From NCBI RefSeq assembly GCF_004698125.1, contig NZ_ML214297.1, forward strand, positions 806,001 to 870,000: a DNA stretch of 64,000 bases, written 5' to 3'. The first letter of the stretch is position 1; the number at the start of each line of letters is the position of its first letter. The notes beneath the pieces are model-generated. The model was given only the letters and a program-made list of their open reading frames with translations. It did no database searches and was not told the origin of the DNA. Both the position numbers and the translations under genes were made by a program. This document shows, one piece after another, positions 31,201 through 38,885 of the stretch. The DNA is from Halosimplex halophilum (GTDB lineage Archaea; Halobacteriota; Halobacteria; Halobacteriales; Haloarculaceae).

Positions 31201-32283
31201 TCACGCCGACACCTCCGCGAGGACCTCGTTGATCGTCTCGACTGCCCGGCGGGTCTCGTCTTCCGTCCCGCAGGTGATCCGGATGCACTCGGGCAGGCCG
31301 AAACTGGTGCAGTCGCGGACGATGACCCCCTCGCGCTGGGCGGCGTCGGCGACGGCGCTCGCGTCGCCCACCTCGACGAGGACGAAGTTGCCGCCGCTCT
31401 CCCAGGTCTTCGCCTCCAGGCGCTCGTGCATGTACTCGCGGGCCCACTTCGCCGTCTCGACGGTCCGCTCGACGTGGTCGTCGTCGTCGAGCGCGGCCAG
31501 GCCGGCGCGACACGTCAACTCGGTCACGCCGAAGGGGGTGTTCACGCGGGCGTAGGCGTCGGCCCACTCCGCGGGCGCGACGGCGTAGCCCAGGCGCATC
31601 CCCGCCAGGCCGTAGGCCTTCGAGAACGTGCGGATCACGGCCACGTCCTCCCGGTCCTCGACGAGCTCGATCCCCGTGGGGGAGTCCGTGAAGTGGACGT
31701 ACGCCTCGTCGTAGACGACGAGCGTCTCCTCGTCGGTCGCCTCGGCGACCGTCCGCACGTCCGCCAGGCTCATCTCCGAGCCCGTCGGGTTGTGCGGGGA
31801 GGTGACGTAGACGATCCGGTGGCCGTCGTAGGCGTCGAGGACCGTCTCGGGCGTCTGTGCGAAGTCCTCGGCCTTCTCCAGGCGGTACTCGTCGACCTCG
31901 CCGTGGTGGTAGCGGGCCGACATCGGGTAGTAGGCGAATCCGGGTTTCGGGACGAGCACGCGGTCGCCGGGCTCGATGAACGCCCGGGCGACGTTGTCCA
32001 GCGCCGTGTCGCCGCTGGGGGTCAGCCAGATCTGTTCGGGGTCCAGGCCGTGACGGTCGGCGACCTTCTCGGTGAGGTCGGTGTGGGCCGACTTGGGGTA
32101 GCTGGAGACGCGGTCGGCGTGTTCGCGGACGGCCTCGACGGCCTCCGGGCTGGCGCCGAAGGGGTTCTCGTTGGAGGAGAGCTTCACGAGGTCGTCGGGG
32201 TCGAGCCCGAGGTCGCGGGCCACCTCCTCGATGCCCCTCCCGGCGCGGTAGACGGTGTGGTCGGAGAGGTCCCGTGGTTCCAT
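31201..32283 (-). CDS. hisC: Histidinol-phosphate aminotransferase (HisC)
   Basis: A 360-residue PLP-dependent aminotransferase of histidine synthesis, converting imidazole-acetol phosphate and glutamate to histidinol phosphate. Markers: KLSSNENPFGASP near 34-46, TSPHNPTGSEM near 158, VVYDEAYVHF near 190, and the PLP lysine in RTFSKAYGLAGMRLGYA near 222. The start at 32283 (MEPRDLSDHT) is chosen because 'cttaag' on the minus strand lies 25-30 nt upstream; an upstream ATG at 32322 would lie ahead of that promoter. Confidence 0.92.
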   Translation of the reverse strand: MEPRDLSDHTVYRAGRGIEEVARDLGLDPDDLVKLSSNENPFGASPEAVEAVREHADRVSSYPKSAHTDLTEKVADRHGLDPEQIWLTPSGDTALDNVARAFIEPGDRVLVPKPGFAYYPMSARYHHGEVDEYRLEKAEDFAQTPETVLDAYDGHRIVYVTSPHNPTGSEMSLADVRTVAEATDEETLVVYDEAYVHFTDSPTGIELVEDREDVAVIRTFSKAYGLAGMRLGYAVAPAEWADAYARVNTPFGVTELTCRAGLAALDDDDHVERTVETAKWAREYMHERLEAKTWESGGNFVLVEVGDASAVADAAQREGVIVRDCTSFGLPECIRITCGTEDETRRAVETINEVLAEVSA

Positions 32284-32307
32284 ATCGGAAGGGAACGCCG
32301 GCCGCGT

Positions 32308-32313
32308 CTTAAG
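32308..32313 (-). promoter_or_regulatory. TATA-like box of the hisC operon
   Basis: 'cttaag', 25-30 nt before the ATG at 32283; it decides the start of hisC. Confidence 0.45.
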
Positions 32314-32420
32314 CGTGCTCACACGCCGTGAGCCGGTGGCGGGAGACCCCCGTCGCCGGCGAGGACCGCGAACCGCCGGAAGTGGGTAGCTTCAAGGGAG
32401 TCGCGTCCTCCGGGACGCGT

Positions 32421-32885: not shown

Positions 32886-33061
32886 GCCGGTTTCGGTGCC
32901 GTCCTGTGGTCTCCCGTCGTTCCCGTCGGCGTCCCGGTCGGCGGTGCGGAGCGTTTAATCGTCCCGGCCGACTACTCGGAGTGCGTGCCTTCAGTCCCCG
33001 CCCGAGCGCACCCGTACGGGAGCGATGACCGCGCGGCGAACCCGGGCACGCGACACCGAGT
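32886..33061. other. Intergenic region upstream of the hairpin cluster
   Basis: No credible frame. A TATA-like 'gtttaat' at 32953-32959 on + has no ORF in position to use it, so it could drive a non-coding RNA starting near 32983 that would include the hairpins at 33062-33180. Confidence 0.35.
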
Positions 33062-33201
33062 GGCGCCGCAAGCGCCGACCGGCCGAGGGGTCGCGGTCGC
33101 CTCGGCACACTGGGAAACCTGACGGTTTCCCGCCGCAGCGGCGTCTGCCGGTGCGGCAGCCGGTGGCGCTACCCGCCACCCGCCCGGCACGAGGGTTTCC
33201 C
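33062..33201 (+). ncRNA. Candidate structured RNA: six consecutive hairpins
   Basis: Stems in order: 33062-33066/33072-33076, 33082-33088/33100-33106, 33112-33119/33124-33131 (8 bp, loop TGAC), 33132-33135/33139-33142, 33146-33150/33154-33158, 33162-33168/33174-33180. A copy of the third stem's 3' arm recurs at 33194-33201, so two folds compete for the same 5' arm. No CDS fits, and there is a promoter-like box at 32953. It does not show the conserved sequences of RNase P, SRP or tRNA. Strand is inferred from the promoter-like box. Confidence 0.35.
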
Positions 33202-33331
33202 GGCTGACCACGGCACGCCGCCTGGGATGATGTCGGTCGTTAGTGTTCCGGGCGACACCACCCGAACGGACAGCGACCGCGCCGTCGGAAGTCGCCCACC
33301 GTTAAGACACGTCGTTTCGAACGACGCACCC
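33202..33331. other. Promoter region of the membrane protein gene at 33332
   Basis: 'cgttaagac' at about 33300-33308 is the probable core promoter, about 30 nt before the ATG. A 7-bp inverted repeat 'cgtcgtttcgaacgacg' at 33311-33327 lies between it and the start and could be an operator. Confidence 0.4.
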
Positions 33332-33731: not shown

Positions 33732-34571
33732 TCAGAGGAGCGCGATCGCCGCCGCGGCCACGTTCTGCTGGTCGGGCAGCTGGTCGCCGAAGGCCACAAC
33801 GACGTACAGCAGCGTGAACAGCGTCGCGTTGTAGATCCCGTGGATCAGCGAGGGCACGACGATGTTGTCGGTGAGCTCGTAGGCCGCCCCGAAGACCAGC
33901 GACGGGCCGACGAGCACCGCCAGCGCGACGAAGTTGCCGGCCGCGGAGCCGCCGGTCAGCGCGAACCAGTGGAGGCCCGCGAAGACGGTACTGGCGAGGA
34001 GGATGCCCGCAACGGGCCCGAGTACCTCGCGGAGCCGCCCCTGGACGACGCCGCGGAAGAGCAGTTCCTCGCCCGGGCCGATGACCAGGATCGACGCGGG
34101 GATCAGGATCAGCAGGACCTCGGGGTTCTCCATCCCGATCTCGGCGGCCTGGTTGGTGCCGGTGTCGACCTGAAGCAGCGTGACGAGGATCGACCCGGCG
34201 AAGGCGGCGCCGAGCGCGAGGACGTAGCCGCCGACGACGACGGCGACCGCACGGAGGTCCGGCAGGTCGGCGTCGATGTCGAACGGCCCGGGGACGCCGT
34301 CGAACCCGAGGAGCGACCTGACCTCGGGGCCGACGACGGGCCGGAGTTTCAGATACGCGAACGCGACGCCGGCACAGCCCACGCCCTGTACGAAGACGAG
34401 ACTCAGGACGATCACCGCGGCCGGCGAGATCTCGATACCGAGTCCGAGAGTCAGTACGGCGGCGGCGACGGAGGCGAGTACGAACCCGAACGCCAGCCCG
34501 CCGCCGCCGAGGCCGAGGGCGGAGACGAGCGCGACTACCGTTCGAAGCGGGGACCGTTCACTCGTTGCCAT
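33732..34571 (-). CDS. CPBP (CAAX protease/bacteriocin-processing) intramembrane metalloprotease
   Basis: A 279-residue membrane protein with about eight hydrophobic segments. The three ABI/CPBP motifs are present: GPGEELLFRGVVQGRL (motif 1 EE..R), FAGLHWFAL (motif 2 with His) and SLIHGIYNAT (motif 3 His/Asn). Members are intramembrane glutamate-type proteases of the Rce1 family; substrates in haloarchaea are unknown. The ATG at 34571 is preferred over a GTG 6 nt upstream. Confidence 0.88.
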   Translation of the reverse strand: MATSERSPLRTVVALVSALGLGGGGLAFGFVLASVAAAVLTLGLGIEISPAAVIVLSLVFVQGVGCAGVAFAYLKLRPVVGPEVRSLLGFDGVPGPFDIDADLPDLRAVAVVVGGYVLALGAAFAGSILVTLLQVDTGTNQAAEIGMENPEVLLILIPASILVIGPGEELLFRGVVQGRLREVLGPVAGILLASTVFAGLHWFALTGGSAAGNFVALAVLVGPSLVFGAAYELTDNIVVPSLIHGIYNATLFTLLYVVVAFGDQLPDQQNVAAAAIALL

Positions 34572-34725
34572 TCTCACCCGTCTATACGCCCGTCCGCGCC
34601 AAAAGGGATTCCCTCCTGTCGACCGGCGTCGAGCGATTGGACCGACCGCCCAGCGGCCGGCGGTCCACCCGATGTATAAGGTGATCTTACGGCTTCCCGG
34701 GCGTCGGTATCCGTTTCAGGGCAAG

Positions 34726-37435: not shown

Positions 37436-37535
37436 CCCCGGGGGCTCCGCGACCGTCGCCGCCCTCGTGACCGTCCGCCGCCCGTTGCCGGTCGCGATAG
37501 CAAGTCGTATGGGTCAGTCGCGGCAAGGACGCAGC

Positions 37536-38885
37536 ATGAACGTGCGACGGGTGGACGAGCTGGGTCCCGACGAGCGGGCGGCGCTGTTCGACCGCGACGC
37601 CGGGGTCGAGGCCGTCCGCGACGACGCCCGCGAGATCGTCGACCGCGTGCGGTCGGAGGGCGACGCGGCCCTGCGGACCCTCTCGCGTGAGATCGACGGC
37701 GTCGAGGTCGGCAACCTCGACGTGACCGACCGCGTCGAGCGTGCCTACGACGAGATCGACGCGGAGACCCGCGCGGCCATCGAGGACGCGGCGGCCAACG
37801 TCCGCGAGTTCCACGAGCGCCAGCTGCCCGAGGACTGGACCGAGGACTTCGCCGGCCGCGAACTCGGCCGGCGCTTCCGGCCGCTCGACACGGTCGGCGT
37901 CTACGCCCCGGGCGGGACGGCCGCCTACCCCTCCAGCGTGCTGATGGGCGTGATCCCGGCGGTCGTCGCGGGCGTCGAACACGTCGCCGTGGCGACCCCG
38001 CCGGCCGAGGAGATCAACCCGGTGACGCTGGCGGCCATCGAGGTCGCCGGCGCCGACGCGGTCTACCAGGTCGGCGGCGCGCAGGCGGTCGCCGCGCTCG
38101 CCTACGGCACCGAGACGATAAACGCCGTCCAGAAGGTCGTCGGGCCCGGCAACCAGTGGGTCACCGCCGCCAAGGCCGAGGTCCGGGGCGACGTGGAGAT
38201 CGACTTCCTCGCGGGGCCGAGCGAGGTGCTGGTCGTCGCCGACGAGACGGCGGATCCGTCGCTCGTGGCGGCGGACCTGGTCGCCCAGGCCGAACACGGC
38301 GAGACGAGCTCCGTCGTCGCCGTCACCGACGACGAGGACACGGCCGAGGCGGTCGCCGCGGCCGTCGACGACCACGCCGCGGGCCGCGACCGCGAGGAGA
38401 CGATCCGCGCGGCGCTCGACCGGGACGCCAGCGGCGTCTTCCTCGCCCGGTCGATGCCCGAGGCCGTGCTGTTCGCCGAGGAGTACGCCCCCGAGCACCT
38501 CTCGATCCAGGCCGACGACGCCGAGGCGCTGCTTGACCGGGTCCCCAGCGCCGGCAGCGCCTTCCTCGGCCCCTACAGCCCCGTCGCCGCCGGCGACTAC
38601 GCGACCGGCACGAACCACGTCCTCCCGACCAACGGCAAGGCCCGGGTGACCGGCGGGCTCTCCGTCGACACCTTCCTCCGGTCGACGACGGTCCAGCGCC
38701 TCTCCGCGGACGCGCTCGGCGACCTGCGCGACACCGTCACGACCCTGGCGGACGCCGAAGGGCTGGAGGCCCACGCACACAGCGTCGACGCGCGCTTCGA
38801 GCGCGACGCGTCCGGCGAGGGCGGCGACGAGACCGGCGAAGCCGGCGACGACACTGACACGGACGCCGAGCGGGCCGACGAGTAG
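37536..38885 (+). CDS. hisD: Histidinol dehydrogenase (HisD)
   Basis: A 449-residue enzyme, last two oxidation steps of histidine synthesis (histidinol to histidine, NAD and zinc). Typical segments: [20 protein letters not shown] near 123-142, [15 protein letters not shown] near 203, [13 protein letters not shown] near 222, [13 protein letters not shown] near 315 with the catalytic Glu-His, and [17 protein letters not shown] near 365. An acidic tail of about 25 residues ([16 protein letters not shown]) is extra to the family. The ATG at 37536 begins the usual [10 protein letters not shown]; hisC is 5 kb away on the other strand. Confidence 0.95.

Follow-up and report, generated by a model that had tools for sequence, protein, structure and literature searches.

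The window, by which we mean the whole stretch of 64,000 nucleotides of the Halosimplex halophilum genome, contains an intergenic region of 446 nt within which a cluster of hairpins had been reported at 33062-33201. Near it, frames resembling HisC (31201-32322, reverse strand), a CPBP protease (33732-34577, reverse strand) and HisD (37467-38885, forward strand) were recognized by eye. The hairpins are real, and inspection by eye yields six local stems of about 5-8 bp between 33062 and 33180, but the boundary given to them by the sequence-only reading has to be shifted to approximately 32980-33257. They are the middle part, or spacer, of a larger element on the forward strand. The parts of this element, as we read them, are:

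32953..32959, forward strand: TATA-like promoter element GTTTAAT, putative in its promoter role (sequence; loci L001-L007 have an A+T-rich hexamer 26-28 nt upstream of the HP1 block)
32980..33055, forward strand: HP1, H/ACA hairpin (55-locus alignment, pair counts, target fit)
32983-32989 with 33045-33051, forward strand: HP1 lower stem
32993-32996 (AGTC) and 33039-33043 (AACCC), forward strand: HP1 pocket arms
33004-33005 and 33024-33028, forward strand: HP1 putative K-turn strands
33053-33055, forward strand: HP1 ACA box
33056..33177, forward strand: spacer, hairpin array (folding and comparison)
33112-33119: GGGAAACC, 5' arm of the competing pair (sequence)
33124-33131 and again 33194-33201: GGTTTCCC, two identical 3' arms (sequence)
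33178..33257, forward strand: HP2, H/ACA hairpin (56-locus alignment, pair counts, covariance model match of 98.8 bits, target fit)
33181-33187 with 33248-33254, forward strand: HP2 lower stem
33191-33196 (GAGGGT) and 33241-33244 (TAGT), forward strand: HP2 pocket arms
33206-33207 and 33226-33230, forward strand: HP2 putative K-turn strands
33255-33257, forward strand: HP2 ACA box
33241..33254, forward strand: TAGTGTTCCGGGCG, the core that recurs in the cassette repeats of relatives, an empty site in the window

The 140-nt stretch as first reported folds at -84.5 kcal/mol, compared with -71.3 kcal/mol (sd 3.95) for shuffled sequences (z -3.33), and none of 200 shuffles was equally stable. The minimum-energy fold of these 140 nt alone nests some of the local stems; the drawing with six stems is not that minimum. 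The whole intergenic region has a match in 34 of the 40 genomes searched as relatives, and G033, one of the six misses, was recovered by a covariance model of HP2. Many relatives match as two separate blocks, at approximately 32981-33056 and 33175-33257 of the window, and the reported hairpins make up the variable part between them. A sequence-pattern search for the element gave 68 matches, of which 56 were left without identical copies, one of these lacking HP1. The alignment of HP2 (56 rows, 53 distinct) has 99.5% of its cells paired and 8 of its 16 pairs changed on both sides, while that of HP1 (55 rows, 54 distinct) has 94.7% of cells paired and 11 of 17 pairs changed on both sides. For HP1 and HP2 alike the pairing values and the covariation score were reached by none of 500 shuffles, these being tests which ignore relatedness, are inflated by related sequences and concern structures picked after the alignments had been viewed. 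Pairing was lost in both hairpins when the partner was shifted by 1-3 columns. The weak pairs of HP1 are 25-55, broken in 12 rows, and 29-46, broken in 9 rows. The measure of further pair types was equalled by 5 (HP2) and 25 (HP1) of the 500 shuffles, and the fold of the single HP2 sequence was not better than shuffled (z -0.46). Among 147 genomes of the phylum the HP2 covariance model had exactly one match per genome in 49, 25 of which belong to the order and 24 lie outside it. Ten model alignments were viewed, nine of which concern genomes beyond the order; most retain the arms GAGGGU and GUUAG while the stems vary. By the model matches HP2 has homologues beyond haloarchaea.

The two flanking hairpins possess the lower stem, internal pocket and upper stem of H/ACA guides, as seen from the pair counts at 55 and 56 loci. 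ACA or AUA follows HP1 and ACA follows HP2 in all aligned rows, a conservation that is partly due to construction since the search patterns demanded A-C/T-A. The GA and UGA strands of a putative K-turn in the upper stem are conserved in both alignments. Counted on the alignments, the first nucleotide of the 3' arm lies 14 nt before the ACA in both window hairpins; the archaeal rule, as given in the relevant passages of PMC2584109, puts the ACA 13-16 nt from the target position. No 23S rRNA gene was found by family or pattern search on any contig of the assembly of the window genome (G000), although this assembly is rated 99.87% complete, and targets were therefore taken from relatives. The gene was present in all 16 relatives tried, and four of these 16 loci were scanned for target fit. 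The HP1 arms AGTC/AACCC fit best to GGGUU[UA]GACC and the HP2 arms GAGGGT/TAGT to ACUA[UG]ACCCUC in all four, sites which we take to be U2586 and U1917, respectively, of Escherichia coli. This numbering agrees with PMC2584109, and the best-fit sites coincide with those reported for the RNA of Haloferax. Two other choices of HP2 arms, GAGGGTT/AGTGTT and GAGGGT/TTAGT, were rejected as they did not rank helix 69 first.

Grosjean et al. (2008) describe, in the passages concerned, two conserved predicted H/ACA hairpins in Haloferax and other halobacteria with a "long spacer" between them, HP1 being directed to the equivalent of E. coli position 2586 and HP2 to 1915 and 1917 (PMC2584109). The corresponding part of Toffano-Nioche et al. 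(2015) treats the same hairpins as Hvo1 and Hvo2 (PMC4652768). Compared by description, the Haloferax volcanii RNA agrees with ours in hairpin order, 23S targets and long spacer; it differs in belonging to another organism, and the passages on it in both papers contain neither a hairpin-array spacer nor cassettes. Likeness extends to Pf7/Pab40 and Afu4 of Thermococcales and Archaeoglobus, since HP1 and HP2 are equated there with stems II and III of Pf7, and our HP2 model matches also reach outside the haloarchaeal order, whereas those RNAs have three adjacent hairpins (passages of PMC2584109). From all this the element is almost certainly the box H/ACA guide RNA of haloarchaea with two hairpins, called HP1/HP2 by Grosjean et al. 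and Hvo1/Hvo2 by Toffano-Nioche et al., with the reported hairpins as its spacer. The guide RNA of the window is thus an ordinary one, known in kind and predicted before.

The suggestion that the hairpins belong to a non-coding RNA is supported by the compensatory changes in the two conserved hairpins on either side and by a TATA-like box about 26-28 nt upstream at the seven loci of the genus that were examined, the box which had been noted at 32953 being indeed GTTTAAT at 32953-32959, upstream of the RNA element. The earlier statements of what it is not also hold: a search with family models gave no tRNA here, and an identity with RNase P RNA or SRP RNA was rejected as both genes were found at other places in the genome. 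A search of the element against Rfam 15 matched no family, and a relaxed threshold gave two matches far under the cut-off. A conserved ribosomal guide RNA without any matching Rfam 15 family was hence a gap in annotation, which is filled here. Its name is presumably sR-h45, for which no paper was found in the open-access literature searched. H/ACA hairpins bind Cbf5, Nop10 and Gar1, plus L7Ae via the K-turn. In Halosimplex halophilum the TATA-like box at 32953 would serve as the promoter of the RNA, HP1 and HP2 would each assemble an RNP with these four proteins, and the pocket of HP1 would offer U2586, and that of HP2 U1917 and, through a published alternative pairing, U1915, of 23S rRNA (E. 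coli numbering) for pseudouridylation. The spacer would link the two guide units and may hold two bulky RNPs apart or expose processing sites.

The spacer is between 1 and 258 nt long over 55 loci, with only 1-26 nt in some species, and even among L001-L007, the loci of the genus, its length spans 21 to 258 nt and apparently varies by whole hairpins. Among the 48 spacers of at least 40 nt, 39 have a folding z below -2 (mean z -4.2), and together these 48 contain 69 perfect hairpins, whereas 50 shuffled sets had on average 4.2 and at most 10. These 69 hairpins comprise 57 different stems. Spacers are hairpin arrays conserved in form rather than in sequence, a clear example of structure retained through turnover of sequence and length. 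No third H/ACA unit was seen in the spacer by eye. The hairpin structure is new relative to the passages of PMC2584109 on this RNA, which mention the long spacer without hairpins.

It was stated beforehand that without compensatory changes the stretch would be a GC-rich repeat remnant, and for the flanking hairpins this is excluded, as both covary. High GC content and many chance open frames across the region do speak for a repeat remnant or a chance structure in a gene-free gap, but compensatory changes, largely invariant pocket arms and the conservation of two hairpins throughout the order leave this explanation with practically no credibility. The competing arm had also suggested a cis-acting switch. 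In the window 33112-33119 is complementary over 8 of 8 nt to both 33124-33131 and 33194-33201, so the two mutually exclusive pairings exist as described and are both perfect, and 33194-33201 falls in the 5' pocket region of HP2 (guide arm at 33191-33196). GGGAAACC at 33112 would then pair either with its neighbour or with 33194-33201, masking the 5' guide region of HP2 and so toggling it, and for the window genome such a complement was found in just 3% of shuffled spacers. An exact complement of at least 8 nt to the HP2 5' arm is, however, present in only two of 55 spacers, and the longest complement averages 4.9 nt, which is not higher than the 5.2 nt in shuffles. The neighbour hairpin is, moreover, local and stable, while the whole RNA in its minimum-energy fold lacks the far pairing. 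Hardly any genome besides that of the window has the competing pairing, and since the arm is not conserved the switch is not supported; we regard it as very improbable.

A more serious proposal, to which we give somewhat less than an even chance, is that the spacer is functionless, its hairpins coming and going by copying errors at such structures and any folded sequence that stays out of the way being tolerated. The range of lengths over the 55 loci, the diversity of stems, the changes by whole hairpins within the genus and the species that manage with 1-26 nt are all in accordance with it, but folding as strong and widespread as in the 39 spacers with z below -2 suggests that structure is kept, if only against misfolding with the guides. 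This proposal covers the spacer alone and is compatible with the reading of the element as a guide RNA.

The genomes of relatives have further copies of the HP2 3' strand, downstream and in the same orientation, each inside a longer repeat of about 55 bp, which contains the HP2 3' core and has the consensus TTTCACTTCCACCGAGCCTACTAGTAGATTCTCGCCCGGTAGTGTTCCGGGCGTACATTTC (89 copies). In a collection of named genomes the exact core pattern was found in 20 stretches, of which 19 are haloarchaeal and come from about a dozen genera; the remaining match, to a Prevotellaceae contig, is probably due to chance. The exact core was absent from viral contigs, and the genome of the window lacks the repeat core even with up to two mismatches. 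A pattern common to HP2 and the repeat is present in 106 of 243 genomes of the order, and the matches listed comprise 150 rows from 73 genomes. Among these, 59 rows are HP2-like, although one of them, in G169, reads as a repeat on closer view; the other 91 divide into 60 that lie downstream of a same-strand HP2-like row at a distance of at most 15 kb, from 29 genomes, and 31 not so placed, most of which are two-mismatch matches. Two of these 31, on contigs of G231 other than the one with HP2 (C42:77561 and C43:229699), possibly reflect assembly ends or other sites. Compared over ten core letters, these repeats among the matches listed are identical to HP2 of their own genome in 48 of 60 cases, the 60 being those downstream of an HP2-like row; the per-genome sum is 23.7 of 29, compared with a mean of 9.8 when genomes were permuted, and was reached in none of 10000 permutations, which ignore relatedness within genera. 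The differences in core letters from one lineage to another are the compensatory changes in the lower stem of HP2.

The repeats delimit cassettes, each of which has a repeat at its end. Fifty loci were examined; apart from two duplicates and eight loci in which the pattern found no repeat, 40 remained, with 83 closed cassettes. In these 40 loci the arrays consist of short cassettes with one repeat each, all in the same orientation and starting from a fixed anchor; tandem cassettes downstream of HP2 are found, for example, at L050, L051, L055, L065, L084 and L091. Cassettes are mostly 0.7-1.1 kb long, with one group at about 0.2 kb and some of up to 8.5 kb, and those near 8.5 kb may hide a missed element or carry several genes. 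As cassette ORFs were called by a custom composition score, genes may be missed or invented. Recurrent modules are a Fic protein (PF02661) with a 46-aa protein, UPF0175 with DUF3368, DUF433 with DUF5615, and a helix-turn-helix protein with a partner that is either PemK-like below the Pfam cut-off (E 0.0014) or matchless, and these are probably toxin-antitoxin-like pairs. DUF7387 proteins also recur, and other cargo occurs, for example an HbpS-like protein. Plasmid relatives exist for two cassette modules, those of the Fic protein carrying the annotation death-on-curing toxin, and since the two records examined (L099 and L100) have no repeat, genes of this sort occur independently of it as well. 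A phage collection contained no DNA resembling one cassette in its entirety. Within the genus the site is empty in G000 and G003 and filled in G007 and G006; when filled and empty sites are compared, the flank splits after TAGTGTTCCGGGCG and the same downstream gene then resumes. A tyrosine integrase (PF00589) was found within 30 kb of the array in none of 12 array genomes, the contig of G007 ending about 12 kb from its array, and the nearest PF00589 match lies about 32 kb from the array, in G117.

The HP2 3' strand with its ACA box thus appears, by comparison of sequences, to be the attachment point of small-cassette arrays in relatives. It seems to us likely that in haloarchaea an integron-like system uses the 3' end of the H/ACA guide RNA gene as its fixed docking site, and that cassettes of one or two genes, many of them toxin-antitoxin-like, insert in one direction at TAGTGTTCCGGGCG and restore the guide RNA. 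Every inserting cassette would carry its own ACA box, and so the guide RNA would be rebuilt. Insertion would leave the repeat of about 55 bp, and the core of this repeat would equal the 3' strand of the HP2 already in place, the compensatory changes of its lineage included. Such movement would require a recombinase in trans; homologous recombination between repeats could be an alternative way of shuffling cassettes after the first landing. Should this be correct, toxin-antitoxin-like modules form a mobile reservoir that is anchored, across haloarchaeal genera, at the gene of a pseudouridine guide RNA, and it can be asked experimentally which recombinase moves the cassettes and whether restoration of the guide RNA decides which of them land.

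Integrons, including the archaeal ones described in PMC9668308, resemble the arrays of relatives in their short cassettes with one site each, single orientation and fixed anchor, and toxin-antitoxin systems are mentioned there as well, whereas the arrays have no adjacent integrase, another site sequence and a guide RNA gene as anchor. The passages on archaeal integrons in that paper do not mention haloarchaea. Archaeal elements that integrate in tRNA genes are similar in that they rebuild the 3' end of the target gene and leave its core at the far end (PMC8371274, in the part on integration), but the arrays target an H/ACA RNA gene, no integrase was found in their cassettes and these stack in tandem. 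Integration targets named for archaeal elements in the same part are tRNA genes, intergenic regions and protein genes (PMC8371274). No description of cassette arrays at an H/ACA gene was found in the titles and abstracts of the literature searched.

Two minor observations concern single types of cassettes. One cassette contains an ORF pair resembling a DDE transposase (L072:1074-2289), probably a later insertion. Cassettes of about 0.2 kb in which the composition score shows no ORF recur at L079, L083, L087, L091, L055, L058, L066, L069 and L070; some of them start with CGACCTTTT, and the type as a whole is perhaps a minimal or RNA-coding cassette.
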